From positions 1-26,607 of the IMG/VR virus record IMGVR_UViG_3300037427_003989: DNA of 26,607 nucleotides; one strand, written 5' to 3'. The DNA comes from a virus. The translations under genes were made by a program, and so were the position numbers. Under the pieces are notes generated by a model. It made no database searches. It was given only the letters and a program-made list of their open reading frames with translations, and was not told the DNA's origin. This document shows positions 2,771 to 14,909 of this stretch, piece after piece (position 1 is the stretch's first letter; each line of letters opens with the position of its first letter).

Positions 2771-3106
2771 ATGGCAGTTATGTATTGTAGCGAGTGTGGG
2801 GCGAAGCTTTCTTATCAGGTTTCAAAGCCTAAGTTTTGTTCTGAATGTGGTGTAACCATATCTGGAGTCAAGTCTACCTTAGTCGAGGCTAAAGCGGAAG
2901 ATATTTCGGAGGATGACGTTCCGATTATCAAGGGTCTTGATTACGAGATTTCTGCAAGCCAGTCGGGCCAAATTAAGCTTGGGTCGGTTATAGGCACAAA
3001 TGAAGGGGGGGGAATTGAGAGGCGGGGGCCTTCTGGTAAAAAAAGCGAAGATCCACTTGGAGACTCTATAGCTGATTGCGCCCCCAGGAGGGACAGGGGT
3101 AAATGA
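2771..3106 (+). CDS. N-terminal zinc-ribbon protein, 111 residues
   Basis: Residues 5-28 form a zinc ribbon: YCSECGAKL (Cys6, Cys9), then after 13 residues FCSECGVTI (Cys23, Cys26). The rest is polar and low in hydrophobic content. It includes an acidic stretch (about 37-48) and a glycine/arginine-rich C-terminal tail, which suggests an extended, partly disordered protein. Zinc ribbons of this two-knuckle type occur in many proteins that touch nucleic acids or RNA polymerase, so a regulatory role next to the sigma-like gene is plausible but not shown. Its TGA overlaps the ATG of the sigma-like gene as ATGA. It is the first gene of a chain of nine overlapping genes. Confidence 0.75.
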   Translation: MAVMYCSECGAKLSYQVSKPKFCSECGVTISGVKSTLVEAKAEDISEDDVPIIKGLDYEISASQSGQIKLGSVIGTNEGGGIERRGPSGKKSEDPLGDSIADCAPRRDRGK

Positions 3107-3798
3107 GCAAAAAGCTTACTTATGAAGATAAGCAAGATGTAATTGATTCCCTAATTAAAAAAAGAAAAAATCGATGGAACCTCGGTGCGTTAAGTTGGTT
3201 TGACTTTGATGATGTAGAACAAATTATTCGCGCGCATATTTTTAAAAAATGGAGTCAATGGGACCAAAAAAGACCCATTGAGCCTTGGGTAAACAGGATA
3301 ATAACGAATCAAATAAAAAACATTCTTCGGAACAATTACTCCAACTTCCTTAAACCCTGTCACGGCTGCCCTTTTAACCAAGAGGACTATGGGGTAGAAG
3401 AGGGGTGTTCTTTTACTAAGAGCGGGGATCAGTCCTGCGAGTGCCCCTTATTCAGTAAGTGGACGAAAACCAAAAAAAATGCGTATAATATAAAAATGGC
3501 TTCAAGCTTAGAGGGCTACGAGTACTCTCAGGCGTCCTCTGAATCTGCCTTTATGGATTGGGGGAAAGCCCAGGAGAATTTAAATATTGAACTCAAGAAG
3601 GTTTTAAGCGAAAAGCAGTGGAAGATATATAAAATGCTATTTATCGAAAATAAAAGCGAAGAGCATGTTGCTCTCGAAATGGGATACAAAACTTCCGAGA
3701 AAAATAGAACGGCTGGATACAGGCAAATAAAAAATTTAAAAAAAATATACAAGAAGAAGGCAGAAGAAATATTAAAAAATAAAGATATTTTTATATGA
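3103..3798 (+). CDS. Sigma-factor-like protein with cysteine-rich insert
   Basis: The 231-residue protein has a sigma region 2-like segment at about residues 31-82 (DFDDVEQIIRAHIFKKW, then RPIEPWVNRIITNQIKNILR). A sigma region 4-like helix-turn-helix follows at about 160-225 (LSEKQWKIYKMLF through the ALEMGYKTSEKNRTAGYRQ helix pair). Between them is an unusual insert with CHGC (86, 89) and Cys102, Cys112 and Cys114, a likely metal-binding knuckle where other sigma factors have a linker. It most likely directs RNA polymerase to phage promoters, perhaps the GTGTAWAWA elements. AGGAGG lies in the preceding gene, 14 bases before the ATG. It is linked by ATGA overlaps to both neighbours. Alternative: a sigma-fold DNA-binding regulator that does not replace the host sigma factor. 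Confidence 0.72.
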   Translation: MSKKLTYEDKQDVIDSLIKKRKNRWNLGALSWFDFDDVEQIIRAHIFKKWSQWDQKRPIEPWVNRIITNQIKNILRNNYSNFLKPCHGCPFNQEDYGVEEGCSFTKSGDQSCECPLFSKWTKTKKNAYNIKMASSLEGYEYSQASSESAFMDWGKAQENLNIELKKVLSEKQWKIYKMLFIENKSEEHVALEMGYKTSEKNRTAGYRQIKNLKKIYKKKAEEILKNKDIFI

Positions 3799-4847
3799 AA
3801 CTTACAAAAGAGCAGGAGAACTTCATAAGGGAAAATTATTCAAGCACGCAGGATCTAATCGAGCTAACTAGGGCTACATTTGGCGAGGAATCTTTAGATG
3901 GAAGAAGTAAGGAGGGTAGGGCGGTTAGGAACTTCCTGATAGAAAATGGCCTAGAGTACAATACCACTAAAAGAGATAAGGTGCCAGACGTTAAGCTTTC
4001 CAAGGATCAAGAAAGTTTCATAAAGCAGTATTCTTCCGAGGGAATGAACTCGCTTGAAATTGCCAAGCTTATTTTTCCTCCAGAGGTAGAAATTAAAAAA
4101 CTAGGGAAAGAGCAGCGGGCAGTAATCGATTTCCTGGAAGAGAATGCGCCTGAACTGGTGAATGCGTCAGAGGACGCCCTATCTTTATCATGGGCTCCAC
4201 CCAGAATCATAGATAAAATTGTAGACAAGGTAAATCGATATTGCGCAGAAAAGATAGACTTAAAAAAGGCCGCAAAAGCAGAAGTTGAGTGCCTGGAGAA
4301 ATTAATAACATATCTTGCGTCCCCCAGGCTTATATGGACAATCAATAACTACACAAGCCAGGCAGACAGAGATTTATTTGAGGCAGAATTCATAAGGGCA
4401 ACATGGGACAAGCCAGACTTAACTACGGATGAGATAAATTTGTATATCAATGTTTGTATCGATTACATAAACTTAAAAAACATAAATAAGCATATCGAAA
4501 AGCTAAATAAAATGTTTGACGATCTTGAGGAAGAAAATGAAATGACCGTGCGGCTCGCAGAGGTCCTTAAGGCAAAAAGCACCGAGTACGATCAGTGCGA
4601 GAAAAGGCAGCAACAGCTAATTTCTAGTCTAAATGGAGATCGAGTTAAAAGAATCGCCACCAAGATAGACAAGAACGCATCGATACTTGCCCTCGTTCAG
4701 GCCTTTCAGAACGAGGAGGAGCGGCGCTTTATGGTGCAAATGGCAGAAAAGCAAAAAATGGATGTTGAGGCCGAAGCAAACAGAATAGAGGGAATGGAGT
4801 CGTGGAAGGCTAGGGTGCTTGGAATAGACAAAAGCGATGTTGTATGA
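3795..4847 (+). CDS. Tandem-module DNA-binding-like protein (candidate small terminase)
   Basis: The 350-residue protein opens with two copies of a module of about 50 residues. The first (2-53) begins LTKEQENFI and ends RAVRNFLIENG; the second (67-115) begins LSKDQESFI and ends RAVIDFLEENA. Each looks like a small helical, helix-turn-helix-type unit. After a linker comes a long helical region (about 130-350) with coiled-coil stretches rich in Glu, Lys and Gln (LNKMFDDLEEENEMTVRL, EEERRFMVQMAEKQK). DNA-binding N terminus plus oligomerising coiled coil is the architecture of small terminase subunits, and no other candidate small terminase is visible near the large subunit. The size is larger than usual, so this is inference. 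It is joined by ATGA overlaps to genes on both sides. Confidence 0.5.
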   Translation: MKLTKEQENFIRENYSSTQDLIELTRATFGEESLDGRSKEGRAVRNFLIENGLEYNTTKRDKVPDVKLSKDQESFIKQYSSEGMNSLEIAKLIFPPEVEIKKLGKEQRAVIDFLEENAPELVNASEDALSLSWAPPRIIDKIVDKVNRYCAEKIDLKKAAKAEVECLEKLITYLASPRLIWTINNYTSQADRDLFEAEFIRATWDKPDLTTDEINLYINVCIDYINLKNINKHIEKLNKMFDDLEEENEMTVRLAEVLKAKSTEYDQCEKRQQQLISSLNGDRVKRIATKIDKNASILALVQAFQNEEERRFMVQMAEKQKMDVEAEANRIEGMESWKARVLGIDKSDVV

Positions 4848-5638
4848 TTTCTAGTGAAAAAAAATTTTTATTTGTTAGGATTCCGAAAACCGCAGGAACA
4901 ACTATACAAACGGCAATTTCGAGAGGCCAGTTTATTGACTTAGATTCTTTTGGGGCGCAAATTCAATTTTGTAAAGAGGGGGATGCTTCATGGGCCAGAG
5001 ACGCAAAGACGGTAAAAAACAAAAGTAAATATATTAATTTTTTCGATTTTGCTGTTAGGCCAGATTCTTTCATTCATGCTTGCTACCAAGACTGGGAGGA
5101 GGCGTATGATCTAAATGGATATTTTTCATTTTCTTTTGTCAGGAATCCATGGGAGTGGGTCGTTTCACAATATTTGTTTTTAAGGAGGGTGTATTTACGA
5201 AGATTAAATAACGAAAGAAGGGGGAGGCCGTCAAGGAAGAGGTATTTTGCGAATCGAAGGGAGGATTTTTCGAAAAAATTAAGCAATTTCGGATTGTCAT
5301 ACGAAGAGTTTAGGTTAAATCAGGAGTTATTGAGCTTCGAGAGTTATGTGGAGGCATATTTTTCGGAAGATTCGTTCAATAAAACACAGAGCTCTTTTCT
5401 GAAAAACAAGGAAGGGGAGATTGCGGTAGATTTTATTGGTAAATTTGAAAATCTTCAATCGGATTGGGAGTTTATCGCTAAAAAAATAAATTCCGAGCAA
5501 ATACCCCTCAAGGACACAAACTCTTCTGGGGACAGATCGTCATACGACTCTTACTATGAGTCTGCGGAAATAAAAAAAATTGTAACAAATGGTCTTGCGG
5601 AAGACATTGAGCGCTTTGGGTATGAATTTGGAGACTAA
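4844..5638 (+). CDS. PAPS-dependent sulfotransferase
   Basis: This 264-residue protein has the two phosphosulfate-donor motifs of the carbohydrate sulfotransferase family. The 5'-phosphosulfate loop RIPKTAGTT is at residues 12-20, and the 3'-phosphate motif FVRNPWEWVVSQY is at 98-110, with Arg100 and Ser108 as the expected contacts. IGKFENLQSDW (about 198-208) is also typical of this family. It would transfer sulfate from PAPS to a sugar hydroxyl, in the cytoplasm as there is no signal peptide or membrane anchor (related eukaryotic enzymes are Golgi membrane proteins). The acceptor is unknown; nearby epimerases and a glycosyltransferase suggest a phage-directed glycan. It starts in an ATGA overlap with the upstream gene. 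Confidence 0.88.
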   Translation: MISSEKKFLFVRIPKTAGTTIQTAISRGQFIDLDSFGAQIQFCKEGDASWARDAKTVKNKSKYINFFDFAVRPDSFIHACYQDWEEAYDLNGYFSFSFVRNPWEWVVSQYLFLRRVYLRRLNNERRGRPSRKRYFANRREDFSKKLSNFGLSYEEFRLNQELLSFESYVEAYFSEDSFNKTQSSFLKNKEGEIAVDFIGKFENLQSDWEFIAKKINSEQIPLKDTNSSGDRSSYDSYYESAEIKKIVTNGLAEDIERFGYEFGD

Positions 5639-6557
5639 GAAATGTAAGGTCTGCGATGCGGATTTTGATTCGCAGCGTGCTCTGCACGCACACATAAAGA
5701 GCCATAATTTATTCTTAGCGGAATATTACTGTAAATACTATCCAAGGTACAACCTTTTGACTGGAGAGCAATTACCCTTCAAGAAAAGAGAGGATTATTT
5801 TGTCAAAAGCTTTTCTACGATAAAAGAGCTAAATCAGTGGGCTGGCACGGCAAATGAAAAGGATGTGGCGGACTACATCCTCTTGCAGCTTAAAAATAGG
5901 ATAGAGGGTAAAAAGCTTACTCGCGGGCCGAGCCATTTAGAGCTAGAGCTTTATAGCCTGCCTTCTATTGAGCTCTATAAAAGGTTTTTCGGAAGTTATT
6001 CGAAAGCATGCCTAACTGCAGGCGTAAAGCCTTTATTTTACAAAAATATAACTGAAGGTTTTTTTCAGGACGACCCAAGCATTTCTCAGGTTGAGGTTGT
6101 AGTCGATACCCGAGAGCAAAAGCCCCTAGATTTTGTTAACCCCAAGGTTATGAAGCTAGATTTTGGAGATTATACTACAACTGGAGAAAATTATACAAAA
6201 ACTTTTGTTGACAGAAAAAGCGAGTCTGACTTTAAGTCTACAATGTCTACGGGGTTTGATCGATTCACGAAGGAATTAGAAAGAGCAAAGCAATTTAACT
6301 CCTATTTATACATTGTTACCGAAAGTAGTATAGAAAAAATTAAAAGAAACAATAACTATAGCACGCACAAATCTAAGCTAGACTATATTTGGCACAATAT
6401 GAGGGTTTTGAGTCACGAATTTGCAGATACTTGTCAGTTTATATTTGCTGGAGATAGAACCGCCTCAAAGAAAATTATTTTAAAACTTTTAACAAGTGGG
6501 GATAATCTATGGAATACTGATGTGCAATATTTTATAGACAAACAAAATGAACTCTAA
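5622..6557 (+). CDS. C2H2 zinc-finger / ERCC4-type nuclease
   Basis: From ATG 5622 the protein is 311 residues. A classical C2H2 finger is at residues 8-28 (Cys8, Cys11, His24, His28). The middle (about 60-145) is helical and contains FGSYSKACLTAGVKP, like small DNA-binding modules found in phage homing or repair proteins. The C-terminal half carries an ERCC4/XPF-type nuclease core: VVDTREQKP (about 160-168), LDFGDYTT (179-186) and FVDRKSESD (195-203), matching the GD-x(n)-ERK-x3-D pattern with Asp in place of Glu. It probably cuts branched DNA in recombination or before packaging. An ATG at 5589 is also in frame but would overlap the sulfotransferase by 50 bases; I prefer 5622, which overlaps by 17. 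Confidence 0.85.
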   Translation: MNLETKKCKVCDADFDSQRALHAHIKSHNLFLAEYYCKYYPRYNLLTGEQLPFKKREDYFVKSFSTIKELNQWAGTANEKDVADYILLQLKNRIEGKKLTRGPSHLELELYSLPSIELYKRFFGSYSKACLTAGVKPLFYKNITEGFFQDDPSISQVEVVVDTREQKPLDFVNPKVMKLDFGDYTTTGENYTKTFVDRKSESDFKSTMSTGFDRFTKELERAKQFNSYLYIVTESSIEKIKRNNNYSTHKSKLDYIWHNMRVLSHEFADTCQFIFAGDRTASKKIILKLLTSGDNLWNTDVQYFIDKQNEL

Positions 6558-7038
6558 TAAAAAAGGCAAATCCTGGGAGCTGGAGGCTTCCCACCTATTA
6601 CAGGAATATTTCGGGGGCACTTTCAATAGAGTGCCTAGATCTGGAGCAATGTTTGGCGGGAAGAATATTAAATATGCAAAGGGGCAAAGAAAAGACGTAA
6701 AGGAAATAATGTCTGGAGATATAATTTGTCCAGAAGATTTCCCTTTTTCGGTAGAAGCAAAAAGTTATGGTTCTTTTAATTTTTCTAAACTGTATGACGG
6801 AAAGTCTAAGGTTCTGGATGAATGGATTGAGCAGGCTGACTCAGATGCCGTTCTTTCGGACAGGGAGCCCTTGATTTTGATGAAATTCAACTACAAGGGG
6901 GCATACGCAGTCTTTAGGAGATATGGGTATAAAAACGAAGGAGATAGAATTATTTTATTTGACGACTATACTCTATATAAGAATGAATATATCATTACAT
7001 CAATCAAAAACTTCCTCAACGAAGTAAGGTCTTTATGA
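6547..7038 (+). CDS. PD-(D/E)XK nuclease, Holliday-junction-resolvase-like
   Basis: The 163-residue protein has the order of catalytic residues expected for a PD-(D/E)XK nuclease. Glu13 lies in the first helix (GKSWELEASHLL), Asp58 in MSGDIIC, and Glu70-x-Lys72 in FSVEAKSY. The arginine-containing RVPRSGA stretch between them is typical of archaeal Hjc-like and phage resolvase-like enzymes. It probably resolves branched DNA, or otherwise trims replicated phage DNA before packaging. It overlaps the upstream ERCC4 nuclease gene by 11 bases and the methyltransferase gene by ATGA, so two structurally distinct nucleases are made in tandem. Alternative: a restriction-type endonuclease domain. Confidence 0.78.
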   Translation: MNSNKKGKSWELEASHLLQEYFGGTFNRVPRSGAMFGGKNIKYAKGQRKDVKEIMSGDIICPEDFPFSVEAKSYGSFNFSKLYDGKSKVLDEWIEQADSDAVLSDREPLILMKFNYKGAYAVFRRYGYKNEGDRIILFDDYTLYKNEYIITSIKNFLNEVRSL

Positions 7039-7607
7039 ATGCTAAGCAAAAAAAGATCCATCCGAGGGGTTTTTGGCAGGCCGAAACAATAAATCACCAC
7101 TATGATGATTCTTTTTGTTTAAAATTAAAAGATATATGTCGTGATTTCAGGTCTGTAGTTGATTTTGGTTGCGGTAACGCTGGTTACGCTAAAAGCATCA
7201 AGAAAGAAAATCCAGATATTGTTGTGGACGCTTTTGATGGAAACCCAAATGTTGGAAAAATAACCAATGGCTTTGGTGAAAATTTAGATCTTTCCAGGGA
7301 GTTTAATCTTCATAGAAAATATGACGTCGTTATTTCTCTTGAGGTTGCGGAACATATACCAAAGGAGCATGAGGCCACATATATAAACAATATAAGCTCT
7401 CATTGCAATAGGCTGTTGGTATTTAGTTGGGCTAAAGTTGGGCAAGGGGGAAAGGGGCATATTAACGAACAGAATAAGGATTATGTTTTGAAAATTTTGA
7501 GAGAAAAAGGGTTTGTCTTGAATCGCGCCCTTTCGGAAGAGCTTCAATCCTCTGCAACTGTTTGTTATTGGTTCAAGGAAACGTCTTTAGTTTTTGATAG
7601 AAAATGA
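7035..7607 (+). CDS. Class I SAM-dependent methyltransferase
   Basis: The Rossmann-type methyltransferase core is clear in this 190-residue protein: motif I VVDFGCGNAGY (41-51), the acidic end of strand 2 (DAFDGNP, 65-71), and motif IV YDVVISLEVAEHIP (96-109), followed by a GQGGKGHIN loop. EVAEHIP is typical of Methyltransf_11/23-type enzymes acting on small molecules or sugars rather than DNA; no DPPY or NPPY motif is present. The substrate is unknown. Glycan methylation fits the neighbouring epimerase and sulfotransferase (inference). It is preceded by TAAGG at a plausible SD distance and joined by ATGA overlaps to both neighbours. Confidence 0.85.
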   Translation: MNAKQKKIHPRGFWQAETINHHYDDSFCLKLKDICRDFRSVVDFGCGNAGYAKSIKKENPDIVVDAFDGNPNVGKITNGFGENLDLSREFNLHRKYDVVISLEVAEHIPKEHEATYINNISSHCNRLLVFSWAKVGQGGKGHINEQNKDYVLKILREKGFVLNRALSEELQSSATVCYWFKETSLVFDRK

Positions 7608-8146
7608 AATGCACAAGATATCATTATATGAAAGAGGTTATTAGCTTCCTTTCTGACCAGAAATATTCGAGCGAATCTGTTTTGGAAATTAGAGGCAAAA
7701 CAAAAGAGTGGCTGTCTTTTTTTAAGAGGCATACTTTTGCTGCTTTCCCCGAAGTGGACGCACATAATTTGCCGTATAGTGATGATAGTTTTGATGCGGT
7801 TTTTTGCAATCAGGTATTAGAGCACGTAAGTAAGCCCTGGGTGTGTGTTGATGAGTTTCATAGGGTTCTTAAAAGCGGGGGGATTTTAATACTTTCTTCC
7901 CCTTTTATCTATCAAGAACATAATCATCCTGTTGACAATTGGAGGTTTACTCCATCTGGGCTAGGGGTTTTGTGCGAGAATTTTTCCGAAATTTTATTGT
8001 CCCATAAAGGGGGCAACTCTAAGATGGTTGAGCATATGATAAAAAATCCGAGCGACAGGCACAGTAGGAGGTTTAGATCCCTATTAGCTCACGAGGATGA
8101 AAATAAAATTTATTATACTATAAGCACTATTATCGCAAAGAAATGA
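7604..8146 (+). CDS. Methyltransferase-like protein with degenerate SAM motif I
   Basis: This 180-residue protein has a normal second half of a Methyltransf_11 domain: LPYSDDSFDAVFCNQVLEHV (56-75), FHRVLKSGGILILSSPF (85-101) and the HPVDNWRFTPSGL segment (108-120) common in polysaccharide-locus methyltransferases. Where motif I should read VLEIGCGxG it reads SVLEIRGKTKEWLSFF (25-40), so the glycine-rich SAM loop is missing. The protein also lacks the usual 20-30 residues between motif I and the acidic motif. It may be inactive, a structural partner of the preceding methyltransferase, or an atypical enzyme. It is sandwiched by ATGA overlaps between that methyltransferase and an epimerase. Confidence 0.75.
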   Translation: MKCTRYHYMKEVISFLSDQKYSSESVLEIRGKTKEWLSFFKRHTFAAFPEVDAHNLPYSDDSFDAVFCNQVLEHVSKPWVCVDEFHRVLKSGGILILSSPFIYQEHNHPVDNWRFTPSGLGVLCENFSEILLSHKGGNSKMVEHMIKNPSDRHSRRFRSLLAHEDENKIYYTISTIIAKK

Positions 8147-9078
8147 AAAAATATATAGTAACGGGAGGCGCTGGATTTATTGGAAGTAATTTGACTGATT
8201 ATTTAATTGATCGGGGAGACAAGGTAGTTGTTCTTGATTCTTTGTTTTGCGGAAAGAGAGAAAACGTTAATCCTAAGGCTAAATTTATTAACGCAGATTT
8301 GTGTGGTTGCAAGCAGGGTTCTGCGTCCATGTCCTCTTACTTGAAGTTGGTTCAACAAGAAATAGACGGGGCAAGCGGTATTTTTCATATGGCTGCAATG
8401 GCGAGAGTTCAGCCATCTATAAAAGACCCATGCAAATCTAACGATATTAACGTGGGGGGAACTTTGAATGTTTTAAATATCGCAAGAAATTTAGGAATAA
8501 AGAGGGTTGTCTATAGCGCCTCTTCTTCCGCTTATGGAAACGCTTCGGTATATCCTACGCCAGAGGACGCTCCTACTGACCCACTCAGTCCATATGGACT
8601 ACAAAAGCAAATTGGAGAACAGTACTGTAGAGTATTCTATCACTGCTATGGCCTGGAATCAGTTTCTCTTAGGTACTTTAATGTTTTTGGGGAAAGGCAG
8701 TCTCTAGATGGGGCGTATCAATTAGTTATGGGTATTTTCGCAAAACAATTACTGGAAGGCAAGCCAATGACTATAACTGGGGACGGAGAGCAAAGAAGAG
8801 ATTTTACATATGTTGGAGACGTGGTTAAAGCTAATGTTTTAGCTATGGAGTCTCCTAATGTTGGAAAAGGAGAGGTAATTAATATAGGTAATGGAGAAAG
8901 CAGATCAGTTAATCAATTGGCAGATCTTATGGGCGGCCCTAGGGTTTATATAGATCCAGTGATCGAGCCAAGGGAGACGCTTGCGGACAATACTAAGGCG
9001 AAGAAGCTTTTGGGCTGGGAGCCAGAAACAACAATAGAGGATTGGATTCCTAAATATAAAAAAGCTTTGGGGCTTTAA
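8143..9078 (+). CDS. NAD-dependent sugar-nucleotide epimerase (UDP-hexose 4-epimerase-like)
   Basis: This is an extended short-chain dehydrogenase/reductase of 311 residues. The nucleotide-binding motif TGGAGFIGS is at 7-15; the catalytic Ser is in SASSSAYG (about 125-132); Tyr151-x3-Lys155 is in SPYGLQK. RYFNVFGERQ and GDGEQRRDFTYVGDVV follow, as in UDP-glucose or UDP-GlcNAc 4-epimerases and close relatives. Length and motif order are complete, so it should be active, converting a UDP-hexose at C4 in the cytoplasm. The exact sugar cannot be read from sequence, and a dehydratase is less likely. It ends a chain of overlapping genes, six bases before the large terminase gene. Confidence 0.88.
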   Translation: MKKYIVTGGAGFIGSNLTDYLIDRGDKVVVLDSLFCGKRENVNPKAKFINADLCGCKQGSASMSSYLKLVQQEIDGASGIFHMAAMARVQPSIKDPCKSNDINVGGTLNVLNIARNLGIKRVVYSASSSAYGNASVYPTPEDAPTDPLSPYGLQKQIGEQYCRVFYHCYGLESVSLRYFNVFGERQSLDGAYQLVMGIFAKQLLEGKPMTITGDGEQRRDFTYVGDVVKANVLAMESPNVGKGEVINIGNGESRSVNQLADLMGGPRVYIDPVIEPRETLADNTKAKKLLGWEPETTIEDWIPKYKKALGL

Positions 9079-9084
9079 ATAATT

Positions 9085-10956
9085 ATGACATGGGAACAAG
9101 GTAAGCAAATCTCAACCAAACAAGATAAGGATATAAATCAACAAATCCTCGATCTCGAAGGAAGTTTAGAAGAGAATGATGCAAAGTATTATCTTTATAA
9201 GTTTCTAAAGGAAAACACTACATTCGGAACTCAGTTATTAACTGGTGTCGAATTATTTCCTTTTCAACATCTAGCTATTAAAACAATGTTTGAAACCGAT
9301 TACTTCTTGGGAGTATGGGGTAGAGGAATGAGTAAATCTTTCACTACTGGTTTATATGCTTTAATGGACGCTATCTTTAATCAGGGGGTTGAGATAGGTA
9401 TTTTATCTAAATCTTTTAGACAGGCAAAAATGATTTTTAGAAAAATGGAAGACATTGCCTCTAAACCTGATGCCAAATACCTTAATCAATGCATTACTAA
9501 AATTACTAAAAGTAATGATGAGTGGTTGATGCAAATCGGGGATAGCAATATTCGGGCGCTACCATTAGGAGACGGAAGTAAGCTTCGGGGCTTTAGGTTT
9601 CATAGAATTATCATTGATGAGTTCTTGCTTATGCCAGAAAGAATATATAATGAGGTTATTGTTCCATTCCTGTCTGTTGTCGAGAATCCGCAGCAGCGTC
9701 AAAAGATATTCGACCTAGAAAGCAGATTGATAGACCAAGGAAAAATGACAGAAGAAGATAGGTACATATGGCCAAACAATAAGTTAATCATGCTGAGTTC
9801 TGCCTCGTATAAGTTTGAGTATCTGTATAAATTATACGAAACCTTTCAGGATTTGATTCTTGATGAAAGAATGAAGCGCAGCCCATTTGATGCAAAAAGA
9901 GCTATTATGCATTTTAGTTTTGATCAGGCCCCAGAAAAACTATATGATCAAAATCTAGTTGCTCAAGCAAAGGCCACGATGAGTCATAGCCAATTCGCTA
10001 GAGAGTTTGAGAGTGTTTTTACAGATGATAGCAGTGGATACTTTAAGACTTCTAAGATGGCAGAATGCACTGTTCCAGATGGAGACGCTCCAACGGTGGA
10101 AGTTGCTGGGGAGAAGGGGGCCAAGTACATTCTCTCTTTTGACCCTAGTTGGTCGGAGAGTGAAGGTAGTGATGACTTTGCGATGCAAATATTGAAAATC
10201 AACGAAGAAACCAATAAGAATACACTTGTTCATAGCTATGCAATGGCAGGAACAAGACTAAAAGACCATATAAATTATTTTCATTATTTAATTAAGTCCT
10301 TTAACATAGTCCTAATTGTTGGAGATTACAATGGAGGGGTGCAGTTCATTAATGCCGCAAATGAAAGCAAAATATTCAAAGATAAAAAAATCAAAATAAA
10401 ACTTCTTGAACAGTCTTTTGACAAGGCGGAGGACTACCAGAAGGACTTAATCCAAACAAAGAGAATATATGACCCTAAAGATTACAGTTACTGCATCTTA
10501 AGGAAGCCTACTTCCGACTGGATAAGAAAAGCTAACGAGTTGCTTCAGTCCAGTATTGACCATAAGAAAATTTGGTTTGCTGCAAGGGCTGTGGATGATG
10601 CATATCTTGAACAGAAATCTAAGAAAATACCGATTAAGGAGTTGAAGTTTATTAGAGGGCTCGACCAGGAGGAGAGAAATCCTGGGGCAAAAATGATTGA
10701 CCTTGTTGAGCATTTATCTGATAATGTAAACTCCACAAAGGGCCAATGCGCTCTCATTCAGGTGTATACCTCCCCTCAGGGGCACCAAACCTTCGACCTT
10801 CCTCCAGAGCTAAGAAAATCCACAGGACCAAATAAAGCAAGGAAGGATAGTTATTCTGCTATAGTATTGGGGAACTGGGGCTGTAAGATATATAAGGATA
10901 TGATGTCCGCAGAATCCGTGGGCAAAGCAACTTTTACCCCAATGTTTATAAGATAA
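9085..10956 (+). CDS. terL: Terminase large subunit
   Basis: The 623-residue packaging motor has an adenine-binding FPFQHLAIKTMF (58-69), a Walker A-type loop GVWGRGMSKS (76-85), Walker B RIIIDEF (174-180) and coupling motif LSSAS (237-241). The C-terminal RNase H-fold nuclease follows: LSFDPS (Asp353), IVGDYNGG (Asp414) and MIDLVEHLSDNV (538-549, with further acidic residues). This is the T4 gp17-like layout: ATP-driven translocation plus headful or site-specific cleavage at the portal. The P-loop has Ser-Lys-Ser where many terminases have Gly-Lys-Thr/Ser. No SD is seen before the ATG at 9085. It is flanked on both sides by sugar epimerase genes, which is unusual. Confidence 0.95.
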   Translation: MTWEQGKQISTKQDKDINQQILDLEGSLEENDAKYYLYKFLKENTTFGTQLLTGVELFPFQHLAIKTMFETDYFLGVWGRGMSKSFTTGLYALMDAIFNQGVEIGILSKSFRQAKMIFRKMEDIASKPDAKYLNQCITKITKSNDEWLMQIGDSNIRALPLGDGSKLRGFRFHRIIIDEFLLMPERIYNEVIVPFLSVVENPQQRQKIFDLESRLIDQGKMTEEDRYIWPNNKLIMLSSASYKFEYLYKLYETFQDLILDERMKRSPFDAKRAIMHFSFDQAPEKLYDQNLVAQAKATMSHSQFAREFESVFTDDSSGYFKTSKMAECTVPDGDAPTVEVAGEKGAKYILSFDPSWSESEGSDDFAMQILKINEETNKNTLVHSYAMAGTRLKDHINYFHYLIKSFNIVLIVGDYNGGVQFINAANESKIFKDKKIKIKLLEQSFDKAEDYQKDLIQTKRIYDPKDYSYCILRKPTSDWIRKANELLQSSIDHKKIWFAARAVDDAYLEQKSKKIPIKELKFIRGLDQEERNPGAKMIDLVEHLSDNVNSTKGQCALIQVYTSPQGHQTFDLPPELRKSTGPNKARKDSYSAIVLGNWGCKIYKDMMSAESVGKATFTPMFIR

Positions 10957-10974
10957 TTGAATTAGCTCCTTTGA

Positions 10975-10984
10975 GCGTATAATA
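10975..10984 (+). promoter_or_regulatory. GYGTATAWWA element before the GDP-mannose epimerase gene
   Basis: GCGTATAATA starts 17 bases before ATG 10992 and contains TATAAT. There is no SD; TTGAAT lies 15 bases before TATAAT. It could be a promoter for the 10992-12822 gene pair, giving a nearly leaderless transcript. Confidence 0.5.
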
Positions 10985-10991
10985 TATACAT

Positions 10992-12050
10992 ATGTCTAAT
11001 AAAAAATTAAATATACTTGTGTGTGGCGCAGGGGGGTTTATTGCTGGTTATTTAGTGAAAGATCTTCTAAGTAAGGGCCATAGGGTAATCGCTGCAGATA
11101 TTAAGCCAGTAGGTGGGTGGTACCAGGTATGGAGTGGCGCAAAAAACCACTATAGCTGCGATTTAAGAACAAAAGAGAAATGTGAAATTCTATCCGAAGG
11201 AGTGGATAGGGTTTATAATCTGGCATGCAACATGGGAGGAATGGGGTTTATTCAGAACAATCATGCTTTATGTATGGAGAGCGTCCTCATACAAACCCAC
11301 CTGCTAATGGCTTGTAGAAAAAACAACGTAAAAGATATTTTGTATAGTTCCTCTGCTTGTATATATCCATTGGAAGCCCAAACTGAAATTAAAGATGCTG
11401 AGGCACAAGGACTAAAAGAGTCTGACGCATATCCAGCAAACCCCGAAGATGGATATGGATGGGAGAAACTTTTTAGCGAAATCATTACAGATTACTTTGG
11501 AAAAGACTTTGGAATAAATCCAAGGGTATGCAGATTTCACAATGTCTACGGCCCGAATGGAACTTGGGACGGAGGAAGAGAGAAAGCTCCTGCTGCGATA
11601 TGCAGAAAGGTAATTAACGCAAAGTTAAACGGAGAAAAAGAAATAGAAATTTGGGGGGATGGAGAGCAAACTAGATCCTTTATGTACGTTGATGATTGTA
11701 TTACTGGTATGGACTTACTCTGGAATAGCAACTTTATTAAGCCAATTAATTTAGGTAGTGATGAAATGGTCAGCATTAACCAACTTGTTGATATTGTTGA
11801 AGAAATAGCTGGAATAAAACTTAAGCGGAAATATTTACTCGATAAGCCTCAAGGCGTAAGGGGGAGAAACAGCGACAACACTTTAATTAAAAAGGTTTTG
11901 GATTGGTCTCCATCTGTAAAACTCAGAGACGGAATGGAAAAAACCTATAGGTGGATATTGGAGCAGATAAATAGTGGAGGTAAGGTAGGTAGCGGCAAAG
12001 AACATCAAGATGCGAATAGAGGGGGATGGACGATAAATGGGGGCCTTTAA
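10992..12050 (+). CDS. GDP-mannose 3,5-epimerase-like enzyme
   Basis: This 352-residue extended SDR closely follows plant and bacterial GDP-mannose 3,5-epimerase. It has CGAGGFIAGYL (11-21), NLACNMGGMGFIQNNHA (76-92), SSACIYP with Cys123, YGWEK with Tyr155 and Lys159, RFHNVYGPNGTW (181-192) and GGREKAPAAICRK with Lys198. GSDEMVSINQL (255-265) and QGVRGRNSDN with Arg290 complete the set. The Cys/Lys acid-base pair used for C3 and C5 inversion is therefore present, and GDP-L-galactose or GDP-L-gulose would be the product. The last 25 residues are a Gly-rich tail beyond the usual end. It overlaps the following glycosyltransferase by 14 bases. A closely related GDP-sugar epimerase is the main alternative. 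Confidence 0.88.
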   Translation: MSNKKLNILVCGAGGFIAGYLVKDLLSKGHRVIAADIKPVGGWYQVWSGAKNHYSCDLRTKEKCEILSEGVDRVYNLACNMGGMGFIQNNHALCMESVLIQTHLLMACRKNNVKDILYSSSACIYPLEAQTEIKDAEAQGLKESDAYPANPEDGYGWEKLFSEIITDYFGKDFGINPRVCRFHNVYGPNGTWDGGREKAPAAICRKVINAKLNGEKEIEIWGDGEQTRSFMYVDDCITGMDLLWNSNFIKPINLGSDEMVSINQLVDIVEEIAGIKLKRKYLLDKPQGVRGRNSDNTLIKKVLDWSPSVKLRDGMEKTYRWILEQINSGGKVGSGKEHQDANRGGWTINGGL

Positions 12051-12822
12051 TTCTGACATAACTATAGTTCTTTCTACGAGCCCGATGCCTAGCCACCCCT
12101 CTACTGCGTTTGTGGACGAGGTAGTCGACTCGATCTACAGGTTTTTATTCCGATATGAAAAGACCAAGATAATTATTACTTGTGATGGAACTAATGAGTG
12201 CAACGAAGACTACGAGTCATTCATTGTTAATCTTGAGGATAAATATAAAGGTAATGAGGATATTACAATTATCAAAAAGCCAGAGTTTGGGCACCTCACT
12301 GGCAATTTAAGGTTTGCCATAGAGTATGTTGAGACGGAATTTGTTTTTCTTGTTCAGCATGATATTTCTTTCTTGAGGTATGTTGATATAGCTAAGGTTT
12401 TAGAGGATATGCGCAATAACCCAGAACTTAAGCATGTTAGGTTTAATAAAAGATTAAATACCAGAAAGCGAGGGGATTACAATTTAGGAAGGAAGCGTGT
12501 GGACGCGAATTACAAATACATATCTACCCCGCAGTGGTCAGACCAAAATCATATTTGTACCGTAGACTATTTTAAAAATGAAATCTTGACTAGAGTCAAT
12601 AAAGGGTTTATGGAGCACACAATGAGAAAAAAGGCTCGTCGGAAGCACGACGTCTTTGGAACTTTTCTTTTTGGAGATCACAAGGATCCTGTAGCGACTT
12701 GCCACTTGCAGGGTAGGCACGAAAAAGAATTAATCATTCCAGAGTTTTGCTGTGTTGGACATATAAACCTTGAGGGCATAGAAAATTTCGACGACTACTA
12801 CAAAGACAAAGTTAACTTTTAA
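12037..12822 (+). CDS. GT-A-like glycosyltransferase
   Basis: The 261-residue protein begins with the strand DITIVLSTSPMP and has the layout of a family-2-type or related GT-A glycosyltransferase. IIITCDGTNE (45-54) corresponds to the nucleotide-binding strand, TIIKKPEFGHLTGNLRFAIEYV (77-98) to the usual helix, and FVFLVQHDISFL (102-113) to the DxD position. Here DxD is replaced by QHD. A late WSDQNHICTVDYF segment and a charged, His-rich C-terminal half follow. It probably transfers a sugar made by the upstream GDP-sugar epimerase, whose gene it overlaps by 14 bases. Metal dependence is uncertain because of the altered DxD. No membrane segment is present. Confidence 0.68.
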   Translation: MGAFNSDITIVLSTSPMPSHPSTAFVDEVVDSIYRFLFRYEKTKIIITCDGTNECNEDYESFIVNLEDKYKGNEDITIIKKPEFGHLTGNLRFAIEYVETEFVFLVQHDISFLRYVDIAKVLEDMRNNPELKHVRFNKRLNTRKRGDYNLGRKRVDANYKYISTPQWSDQNHICTVDYFKNEILTRVNKGFMEHTMRKKARRKHDVFGTFLFGDHKDPVATCHLQGRHEKELIIPEFCCVGHINLEGIENFDDYYKDKVNF

Positions 12823-12860
12823 CTTTTTTAACTTTTGATTAGACTTTTGATAGACTTTGG
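12812..12860 (+). repeat. Iterated ACTTT repeats upstream of the portal gene
   Basis: ACTTT starts at 12815, 12822, 12831, 12843 and 12854, with extended copies CTTTTGATTAGA and CTTTTGATAGA. The array begins over the last codons of the glycosyltransferase and runs into the element before the portal gene. It could be an operator, or just A/T-biased sequence. Confidence 0.35.
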
Positions 12861-12869
12861 TGTATAATA
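12860..12869 (+). promoter_or_regulatory. GTGTAWAWA element before the portal gene
   Basis: GTGTATAATA starts 16 bases before ATG 12876. TATAAT is eight bases from the ATG, with TAGACT 17 bases upstream as a weak -35. A transcript from here would be leaderless or nearly so. Confidence 0.55.
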
Positions 12870-12875
12870 TGCCAA

Positions 12876-14909
12876 ATGGCCAAAAGAAAATATACAAAGA
12901 AGTCTGAATACTGGAGCAAGTTCGATAAAGCCGACAAATCCAAGCCTCTGTCAGAAATGCCAAGTCATTATTCCCAAGGGGAACCTGGATGGCAGCCAAT
13001 GGGCTGTGGAGAAAATTATTATGTCTCAACTAGTGATGCTGCAGATTGTAGATACAGCTCTTCCACGACAGACTTGTCTTCCCATGAAAGAGACAGGTAT
13101 ATAACTAAAGGCGCAAAGCCTGGAAGGTTCTCTAATATAAGCCAAGGTCTTTTGCCGTTTGAGCATTCTAAGGACGGAATAAGTGTCAAAAACTCAATAG
13201 AACTATGCCAGAAGGCTTACGCTAATGTAGCTATATTTAGAAACTCAATAGATATAATGTCTGAGTTTGCGAATTCTGATTTGTACCTAGAGGGAGGTAC
13301 CGCCTCCTCCAGGTCTTTTGTGGAAAAGTGGTTTGAGAAAATTAATATGTGGAACTTAAAAGACCAGTACTTCAGGGAATACTACAGGTCTGGAAATATA
13401 TTCCTATATCGAGTTGACGGAAAGTTTAAAAGTTCTGACTTTAAGCAGCTTAAGACAGTATATGGAAGCGATGCCTTGAAGCCTGGAGATATGCCTGTAA
13501 AATACATTTTACTTAATCCTTACGATATAGTGCATGAGCGAAGCGCAACCTTTGATCAAGGCAAATATAGAAAAATTCTTTCCGATTATGATTTGGAAAG
13601 ATTGAAAAACCCAAAGACAGATAGGGACAAAGAGATATTCAAGGCTTTAGACCCAGAGGTAAAAAACAAAATTAAAGAAGGGAGATACCTTCCTGACGGG
13701 CTTTCTGTAAAACTTAATTCCAGTAAGTTGTGCTATTCTTTTTATAAGAAACAGGACTACGAGGCATTTGCTGTTCCTTTTGGTTACTCCGTGCTTGAGG
13801 ACATAAATTGGAAGCTAGAGCTTAAAAAAATTGATCAGGCGATAAGTAGAACAATAGAAAATGTTATCTTGCTTATCACTATGGGAGCGAAGGAAGAGGA
13901 TGGCGGAGTTAACCCTCAGAACATTAATGCAATGCAACAGCTGTTTGCTAATGAAAGCGTTGGGCGGGTGCTGGTCGCAGATTACACCACGAAAGCTGAT
14001 TTTGTTATTCCAGACTTAAAGAAGGTTATTGGGCCTGAAAAATATGAAGTCGTTAATCGGGACATTAAGGAGGGCTTGCAAAACATTATTGTCGGAGACG
14101 AAAGATATAGCAACACTCAAGTAAAAACCGAAATGTTCCTAGAAAGACTGAAGGAAGCTAGAAACGCATTTCTAAATGATTTCCTGCAGCCGCAAATAAA
14201 AATGGTTTGTAAAAATTTAGGGTTCAGGAAGTTTCCTACTGCCAAGTTTCAAGAGATCGATATTAAGGACGAGGTGCAACTACAGAGGGTTGCCACTAGA
14301 CTGCTTGAGCTGGGCATACTTACCCCAGAGCAGGGAATAAATGCAATTAAAACTGGAGTCTATCCGAATCCAGAAGAGCTTGCTCCAGATCAAGAAGGAT
14401 ATTCCGAGGAAAGAGAGAAGGGTTTCTGGAATCCCTTGGTTGGTGGAGTTCCCTCAATTGAGGCTCCTGGCGCAGAGAAAGATCGAGCGCTAGAGAAGAA
14501 AAAGGAAAACCAGCAACAAAAAGACGTTCCAAAAGAAGTTGGCAGGCCTAGCGGGACAAGCGACATTCCTCAGGAAAACCAGCGTCAAGCAGCCTCCTAC
14601 AGCAAGGCGGATATCAAGGAGACAGTTTATAGTTCTGAGAAATTAAGGACTTTCGTTGTTAAGGAGGTTAAGGCGAAAAATAATATCAAGAGACTGAACA
14701 AGCAACATAATAAGTTAATTGATGCTTTATGCGAAAATGTAATTCTTTCTTGCGATAAGGATAAGTGGGAGGATTGCGCGAGGTCCTGCATAGGCGATTT
14801 TGATAAAATCGAAAAGCTTTCTGTATTGCCAGAGGTTCATGATATTTCCGTCTCACACGATCTAGCTTTATACCCTTCTGCGATACTATATCACAGCGAA
14901 AAAAAATAA
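12876..14909 (+). CDS. Portal protein
   Basis: The 677-residue protein sits directly upstream of the prohead protease and downstream of the terminase block, the standard position of the portal. Residues about 75-140 (SIELCQKAYANVAIFRNSID, then FADS-like and FVEKWFEKINMWNLKDQYFREYYR) and a central PVKYILLNPYDIV (about 209-221) match the portal core. YTTKADFVIPDLKKVIGP (about 371-388) and the stem helix around FLNDFLQPQIKMVCKNLGF follow. The C-terminal 170 residues are polar and Glu/Lys/Gln-rich, a likely flexible extension beyond the usual portal barrel. It would form the dodecameric DNA gate at the capsid vertex. No SD is visible; transcription probably starts close to the ATG. Confidence 0.85.
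   Translation: MAKRKYTKKSEYWSKFDKADKSKPLSEMPSHYSQGEPGWQPMGCGENYYVSTSDAADCRYSSSTTDLSSHERDRYITKGAKPGRFSNISQGLLPFEHSKDGISVKNSIELCQKAYANVAIFRNSIDIMSEFANSDLYLEGGTASSRSFVEKWFEKINMWNLKDQYFREYYRSGNIFLYRVDGKFKSSDFKQLKTVYGSDALKPGDMPVKYILLNPYDIVHERSATFDQGKYRKILSDYDLERLKNPKTDRDKEIFKALDPEVKNKIKEGRYLPDGLSVKLNSSKLCYSFYKKQDYEAFAVPFGYSVLEDINWKLELKKIDQAISRTIENVILLITMGAKEEDGGVNPQNINAMQQLFANESVGRVLVADYTTKADFVIPDLKKVIGPEKYEVVNRDIKEGLQNIIVGDERYSNTQVKTEMFLERLKEARNAFLNDFLQPQIKMVCKNLGFRKFPTAKFQEIDIKDEVQLQRVATRLLELGILTPEQGINAIKTGVYPNPEELAPDQEGYSEEREKGFWNPLVGGVPSIEAPGAEKDRALEKKKENQQQKDVPKEVGRPSGTSDIPQENQRQAASYSKADIKETVYSSEKLRTFVVKEVKAKNNIKRLNKQHNKLIDALCENVILSCDKDKWEDCARSCIGDFDKIEKLSVLPEVHDISVSHDLALYPSAILYHSEKK

Follow-up and report, generated by a model that had tools for sequence, protein, structure and literature searches.

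A GDP-mannose 3,5-epimerase and sulfotransferase gene set inserted around the terminase gene of an uncultivated aquatic tailed phage suggests a sulfated glycan

The closest described counterparts of the gene set analyzed here lie in cyanophages (Kyanoviridae), where the clusters of S-SSM7 and P-TIM68 combine GDP-mannose 3,5-epimerase (GME) homologues, matching the GME of our locus at 44% and 46%, respectively, with a UDP-glucose dehydrogenase and glycosyltransferases, and where the S-SSM7 cluster holds further epimerases and a methyltransferase. Virion glycosylation in mycobacteriophages, set beside our locus by description, is a likeness in working only, and we know of no sulfation or GME in it. 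Its glycans are carried by capsid and tail-tube proteins, according to Freeman 2023 as cited in PMC12619734. A GME has also been annotated in S-SCSM1 (PMC9602691). What sulfotransferases do in phages is described as unclear (PMC10580990). Among them, PHROG 3347 is matched by the sulfotransferase of our locus, and OM43 phages carry another sulfotransferase family, PF13469; linkage to a GME is not described for either. Furthermore, when compiling its AMG catalogue, a global-ocean survey left out contigs with 'lipopolysaccharide island' genes (PMC11360552) and, given the unclear role of the sulfotransferases, such genes can be passed over.

We analyzed the 26,607-nucleotide IMG/VR record IMGVR_UViG_3300037427_003989 (hereafter, the window), in which all genes of positions 4844-12822 are continuous open reading frames on the plus strand; all features discussed below lie on that strand as well. 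The gene inventory originally predicted for this stretch was borne out by ORF calls and family models: a PF03567 sulfotransferase (ST), two methyltransferases (MT1 and MT2), an NAD-dependent sugar epimerase (EPI1), a GME (EPI2) and a weakly supported GT-A-like protein (GT) surround an ERCC4-type nuclease, a PDDEXK nuclease and the large terminase (TerL). With its weak GT, the window shares the cyanophage pattern of GME, epimerase, glycosyltransferase and methyltransferase. In contrast with the window, the cyanophage clusters belong to a different virus family, do not lie between terminase and portal, and encode GMEs placed elsewhere in the tree; unlike in the window, a sulfotransferase is absent from the annotated stretches of S-SSM7 and P-TIM68 and from the S-SCSM1 paper (PMC9602691). 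The claim that no phage system with this exact set has been described thus holds for the sulfotransferase combination and its placement, but not for the sets of GME, epimerase, glycosyltransferase and methyltransferase, which have similar cyanophage precedents (PMC9602691).

Comparison with relatives reveals a backbone block kept across 84 of them. It is composed of genes encoding a sigma-factor-like protein (3103..3798; PF04542 at 23.3 bits, just under the cut-off of 24), a conserved protein with nothing above cut-off in Pfam (g3795, 3795..4847), the ERCC4-type nuclease (5622..6557; PF02732, 27.6 bits, cut-off 24), TerL (9085..10956; PF03237 [Terminase_6N], 39 bits, cut-off 22; phrog_2) and the portal protein (12876..14909). 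The ERCC4 start was inferred from relatives, the longest ORF beginning at 5589, and this gene sits beside TerL in nearly all loci reaching far enough upstream. The portal gene, for which the family search gave no match, was assigned by position and conservation, and comes after TerL wherever the contig of a relative extends that far. Between these genes lie three slots, mostly empty in relatives (slot A in 56/67, slot B in 59/72 and slot C in 61/73), which in the window contain ST (A), PDDEXK, MT1, MT2 and EPI1 (B), and EPI2 and GT (C). The apparent interleaving is therefore insertion, with the ERCC4 nuclease and TerL as the constant backbone around which the remaining genes were placed. The view of a glycan gene set broken up by nucleases and terminase describes the arrangement correctly, but ERCC4 and TerL are backbone and the PDDEXK gene (6547..7038; PF24608 [PDDEXK_15], 84 bits, cut-off 27, E=1.5e-23) is itself an insert, confined within the TerL relatives to the closest clade (L001-L006). 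Likewise, the reported 4-nt ATGA overlaps occur at the starts of ST, MT1, MT2 and EPI1, but GT overlaps EPI2 by 14 nt and EPI2 follows TerL after a 35-nt gap. No flanking repeat marking a mobile element was found at the slots. EPI1, EPI2 and GT are conserved about as well as backbone genes, and all reading frames are intact in relatives, indicating that the gene set is not there by chance.

EPI2 (10992..12050) scores 131 bits against the Epimerase family (cut-off 21) and 325 bits against plant GME structures, compared to about 100 for the next family. It is 48% identical to plant GME, with which its N-terminal glycine-rich Rossmann motif (GAGGFIA) aligns, and the catalytic motifs SSACIYP (Cys), YGWEK (YxxxK) and GGREKAPAA (Lys) are all present in the window and in its relatives L002, L003, L006 and L020. 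Structure matches, motifs and tree make the identification as GME firm on sequence grounds, and the enzyme is predicted to turn GDP-mannose into GDP-L-galactose or GDP-L-gulose. A GME scan gave at least 48 records. In the GME tree, the window's enzyme falls, among the matches listed, inside a 100/100-supported clade of 10 viral GMEs that encompasses those of the sulfotransferase-bearing L116, L149, L184, L185 and L193. All nine scorable members of this clade (9/9, among the matches listed) come from viruses with sulfotransferases, L020 being left out of the count since its contig stops short of slot A; the more distant viral GMEs listed are mostly without them. The cyanophage GMEs lie on the other side of a 100/99 branch. 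A shuffle test on this tree counts related sequences and is supportive only.

ST (4844..5638) is a predicted PAPS-dependent carbohydrate-type sulfotransferase matching PF03567 with 48.2 bits (cut-off 22, E=2e-12). Its PAPS-site motifs read PKTAGTT (5'-phosphosulfate loop) and RNPWEWVVSQY (3'-phosphate motif RNP...S.Y), with P14, R100, N101, P102, S108 and Y110 invariant in 7 homologues, and its profile weakly matches heparan sulfate 2-O-sulfotransferase (E=0.002). The structural model (pLDDT 63) is poor in the N-terminal part, found no match in a PDB fold search and is of too low quality to assign a fold. PF00685, also considered for ST, is the wrong sulfotransferase family.

The remaining glycan-type genes are of uneven strength. 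EPI1 (8143..9078) is an NAD-dependent nucleotide-sugar epimerase/dehydratase (PF01370, 187 bits, cut-off 21), 74-92% identical in close relatives; the solved structures nearest to it are those of UDP-glucose 4-epimerase (4zrm), a capsule epimerase (10ke) and WbpP. MT1 (7035..7607) matches the SAM-dependent methyltransferase family PF13489 (Methyltransf_23; 32.5 bits, cut-off 27) and has a homologue within a glycan cluster of the unrelated virus L088. MT2 (7604..8146) matches PF08241 (Methyltransf_11; 56 bits, cut-off 21) only over profile positions 45-95, the C-terminal part of the domain, and its motif I is degenerate (VLEIRGKTKEW). GT (12037..12822) is a probable glycosyltransferase on weak evidence: PF00535 scores 17.5 bits, under the cut-off of 23.3, and its model (pLDDT 46), of too low quality to assign a fold, has GtrB and PcManGT among its matches with probability 1.00 but E>0.001. 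Distant homologues of GT occur on two sulfotransferase-bearing loci, L158 and L170.

A cluster search, which could have returned scattered and unlinked homologues, instead found ST, EPI1 and EPI2 linked, kept in place in the closest clade wherever the contig reaches, with ST in every virus whose contig covers slot A. The methyltransferases and GT are swapped there for other genes. Replacements found in the slots keep to the glycan theme: L002 carries a second sulfotransferase, L006 an APS-kinase/nucleotidyltransferase and a UDP-sugar dehydrogenase, and L007 an MptE/Maf-like protein. Proteins resembling APS kinase are also known from other sugar-phosphate pathways. For this reason, and because the annotations of its homologues in Stenotrophomonas and Xanthomonas phages go no further than kinase, riboflavin-biosynthesis or hypothetical protein, the L006 fusion was not taken to prove a supply of PAPS. 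Nor was the L007 protein, with a score barely above cut-off and no match in the PDB, taken as proof of protein O-glycosylation.

Larger viruses carry fuller versions of the set. L116, L149, L184, L185, L193 and L265 resemble the window in having the nearest GMEs (68-75%, among the matches listed), sulfotransferases of PF03567 and, in most cases, a methyltransferase. Where the contig includes TerL or MCP, the virus belongs to the same family as the window; L116, L185 and L170 are placed there on this basis. Operons in the window's GME clade encode GT2, GT61 and GT47-like proteins, sub-threshold galactosyltransferase and GT25 matches, a methyltransferase and sulfotransferases. Whereas the window's genes are split over three slots, these operons are contiguous, hold several extra glycosyltransferases and adjoin replication genes (RNR, UvsX, DnaB, primase) or, in L265 (G068), lie directly upstream of the sigma/ERCC4/TerL block. 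The occurrence of these larger versions in related viruses suggests that the pathway is probably real. The best explanation is that the window holds, in reduced and rearranged form, a glycan module that recurs within a single uncultivated family of aquatic tailed phages. The GME-sulfotransferase module and the slots around TerL appear to be new; GME clusters in cyanophages and sulfotransferases in other phages are already known.

Judging from these gene identities, the window probably encodes the making of a sulfated glycan containing L-galactose or L-gulose. Alongside the GME product, EPI1 would supply a second epimerized NDP-sugar, GT and/or host transferases would build a short glycan, and MT1/MT2 and ST would cap it with O-methyl and sulfate groups from host SAM and PAPS. 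No GDP-mannose or PAPS supply genes are present within the window's set, so donor availability is assumed. A virion protein would be the likeliest acceptor, because the six enzymes look soluble and sit inside the packaging/head block; the particles would then bear a sulfated coat with negative charge. A hydropathy scan of all six found no strong transmembrane segment, the single EPI2 peak (1.64) being its N-terminal Rossmann segment. Since the module of larger relatives lies beside replication genes, the position among head genes is no family rule and argues weakly for the virion as target. The whole statement, with the virion as acceptor, is put forward tentatively, as one that may well fail.

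It is somewhat unlikely that the enzymes instead remodel a surface glycan of the infected cell (LPS, capsule or lipid-linked sugar), for instance against superinfection or particles sticking to debris. Similar cyanophage clusters have been published as cell-wall or LPS modification (PMC9602691), and a glycosyltransferase of the L116 module weakly matches GtrB-like O-antigen conversion families, but the set lacks a flippase, a polyprenyl-phosphate glycosyltransferase, an anchor and any strong transmembrane segment, and genes of the packaging/head block are presumably expressed late, when a surface change helps least. A joint pathway might also be lacking altogether, the slots then being hotspots for insertion in general and every gene an independent auxiliary one that serves its own purpose. 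The coherent sulfated rare-sugar function originally predicted is supported, but the six genes are not conserved as a single unit: of the close relatives found, none besides this virus has MT1 or MT2, GT is present in 3/5 close-clade viruses whose contigs cover its slot, and in other relatives the slots are also occupied by a SET-domain protein, a nuclease and lone methyltransferases. Yet ST, EPI1 and EPI2 stay together over a large divergence, and in separate large viruses members of the same GME clade are linked to sulfotransferases under another gene order, making independent genes clearly unlikely. Glycosylation of phage DNA is known. Nevertheless, transfer of the sugar to viral DNA as a hypermodified, nuclease-resistant base is very unlikely: PMC10829341, citing Iyer et al. 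2013, mentions reports of glycosyl- and sulfotransferase-based nucleotide modification systems in phages and the module adjoins replication genes in larger relatives, but no known base-modifying partner was seen in the parts read, and a thymidylate-synthase homologue is absent from the close-clade contigs and a 136-kb relative and present in 1/26 viral records, a weak point as contigs are incomplete.

Returning to the sulfated glycan reading, the tie of a sulfotransferase to one defined sugar-nucleotide enzyme yields a concrete prediction, sulfated L-galactose or L-gulose, and a sulfated phage coat, should the virion carry the sugar, could affect adsorption, the stability of particles, losses to grazing or host recognition. 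Furthermore, this phage family reuses three fixed sites around the terminase gene for swapping decoration genes. A bolder and doubtful extension is that the family builds a sulfated, methylated L-galactose/L-gulose oligosaccharide displayed on particles, and that in the window's clade the module was split and its parts inserted into the packaging operon, tying its expression to head assembly. The enzyme make-up of the phage family (GT47 exostosin-like, galactosyltransferase-like, PF03567 sulfotransferases) would be comparable to that of glycosaminoglycan synthesis.

As for the host, four TerL matches in genome contigs fell in bins assigned to dissimilar taxa (uncultured bacterium, Halobacteriovorax, Flavobacteriaceae and Verrucomicrobiales) and were treated as binning artefacts, and no tRNA genes were found in the window or in the 28 loci scanned. 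A promoter scan returned sites no more frequent than chance. A conserved promoter-like element between slot C and the portal gene (12840..12875), composed of an ACTTT-rich stretch followed by GTGTATAAT, is also found upstream of the portal gene in L002, L003, L006, L007, L011 and L020.

The window is a 26.6-kb fragment of a tailed phage in which phoH, a zinc-ribbon protein, a sigma-like protein and a conserved backbone protein (g3795, 3795..4847) precede the block under study, followed by the portal, head and tail genes; a protease-like protein (phrog_20754) lies among the latter (window:20854-22179). Its large terminase (TerL) has 291 relatives in IMG/VR. The INPHARED copy held no phage record with a TerL match spanning most of the protein (best, ~24% identity over 64%), and the partially covered literature yielded no description of this phage family. 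Re-derived ORFs and family matches bore out the ORFs, overlaps and family assignments of the original prediction, which had described glycan-modification genes interleaved with packaging genes; the GT-A-like protein (GT) is the sole weak assignment of the set.

Synteny was compared across the best 80 of the 291 TerL relatives and four genome-bin copies. Wherever contigs permit, the sigma, g3795, ERCC4 nuclease, TerL and portal genes keep a constant order around three slots: slot A (g3795 to ERCC4), empty in 56 of 67 measurable cases and holding a PF03567 sulfotransferase (ST) in the window; slot B (ERCC4 to TerL), empty in 59 of 72, with the PDDEXK nuclease, two methyltransferases (MT1, MT2) and an epimerase (EPI1); and slot C (TerL to portal), empty in 61 of 73, with a second epimerase (EPI2) and GT. 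The constant order and mostly empty slots indicate that the ERCC4 nuclease and TerL are fixed parts; the INTERLEAVING of sugar and packaging genes results from insertion, and the operon's close gene-to-gene overlaps are preserved in the inserts. No report of these slots was found in the papers, partially covered. In-frame insertions resembling inteins, with C...HN|S junctions, also interrupt the TerL genes of two relatives, twice at the Walker A motif in one (L026:3918-8324) and once at a different site in the other (L101:8162-11230).

By sequence, EPI2 is predicted to be a GDP-mannose 3,5-epimerase (GME): plant GME structures are its top matches by >200 bits, and it is 48% identical to the Arabidopsis sequence. 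Its catalytic Cys, YxxxK and GGREK motifs, whose roles we take to be those of the plant enzyme, are retained in the close clade and, slightly altered, in cyanophage homologues. EPI1 is a predicted NAD-dependent sugar epimerase (best structural relatives, UDP-glucose/UDP-GlcNAc 4-epimerases), and ST a predicted member of the carbohydrate sulfotransferase family. Viral loci L158 and L170, both of which carry sulfotransferases, contain distant GT homologues.

Within the close clade, L001 and L032 represent the window's own virus (100%) and L004 resembles L003; L002, L003, L005, L006 and L020 were scored as independent relatives. Each of the four whose contigs span slots A and B has ST, EPI1 and PDDEXK, and each of the four spanning slot C has EPI2. 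MT1 and MT2 are absent from the five as far as covered, and L003 carries another, distinct methyltransferase. GT is retained in L003 and L020, and is replaced by a PF17784 sulfotransferase in L002 and by an APS-kinase/CTP-transferase-like fusion in L006, whose slot B additionally holds a UDP-sugar dehydrogenase and a dTDP-glucose-dehydratase-like protein. Homologues of this fusion (67-82%) occur in four ST-array loci (L119, L122, L125, L132) and a GME/ST locus (L184). A short GWTIN/GWSIN motif is found at the EPI2 C-terminus in three viruses (window:11990-12050, L003, L020) and at both ends of the fusion (L006:13281-14183).

The ST scan returned at least 208 viral relatives, and viral sulfotransferases are therefore common. 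A separate GME scan provided, among the matches listed, at least 48 records that were checked for ST: all three with a GME >70% identical to EPI2 carry four or five sulfotransferases, as against any sulfotransferase in 5 of the remaining 45. In the converse check, starting from ST, a close GME is present in 6 of 45 records. In a tree of 55 GMEs, the window falls inside a clade of ten (support 100/100) that splits into the slot clade and a clade of L116, L149, L184, L185 and L193, with two cyanophage GMEs placed elsewhere; ST is known for nine of the ten, L020 not being scorable. In the sister clade, GME is the last gene of a glycan operon encoding, as a composite from which individual viruses lack some genes, GT2, GT61, sub-threshold galactosyltransferase and GT25 matches, a GT47-exostosin-like protein, Methyltransf_24 and one to three sulfotransferases. 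TerL of the window's family occurs in L116 and L170, and an MCP of that family in L185 and L116. In the L170 virus (L265), a 68% identical GME, whose reading contains one internal TAA, and two sulfotransferases lie directly upstream of the zinc-ribbon/sigma/ERCC4/TerL block, with a Maf-like protein in slot C. Elsewhere, one contig arrays eight sulfotransferase-like ORFs within ~10 kb (L132:5360-15249), as if each sulfated a different position. A 136-kb relative (L036) has a nonulosonic-acid-type cluster close to phoH (L095:3517-15200; two NeuB-like proteins, PseF-like, RmlB, B12/radical SAM, MptE/Maf-like, sulfotransferase) and a second sulfotransferase elsewhere.

EPI1, EPI2 and GT change at rates near those of TerL, portal and ERCC4. 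Non-synonymous change in ST is at least twice as fast (window versus L003, pN 0.26 against 0.06 to 0.14 for neighbours), in a comparison where synonymous sites are saturated. This would fit selection on acceptor choice; relaxed constraint is a possible alternative, and constraint on ST persists, strongest at the PAPS motifs.

In the proposed pathway, EPI2 would turn GDP-mannose into GDP-L-galactose or GDP-L-gulose, EPI1 would supply a second NDP-sugar, GT or host enzymes would transfer the sugar, and MT1/MT2 and ST would add O-methyl and sulfate caps. The virion is the likeliest of the possible acceptors, given apparently soluble enzymes, the head-block position and the absence of an export or anchoring gene from the set; the position is weak evidence, since the sister operon adjoins RNR, UvsX, DnaB and primase genes. 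The host surface and DNA are possible rival acceptors. Clusters that combine GME, epimerases, GT and methyltransferase have been described in cyanophages (PMC9602691) and resemble the window's set, and phage sulfotransferases are known, with unclear function (PMC10580990); a GME-sulfotransferase module was not found in the papers, partially covered.

Shine-Dalgarno sequences precede few of the window's genes, a possible sign of leaderless or otherwise unusual translation initiation. A conserved ACTTT-rich stretch plus GTGTATAAT lies ~8-13 nt upstream of the portal ATG in the window (window:12840-12875) and several relatives. The tape-measure ORF of the L003 virus is at least 4125 aa long (L091:5305-17679), and a very long tail is therefore predicted for this virus.
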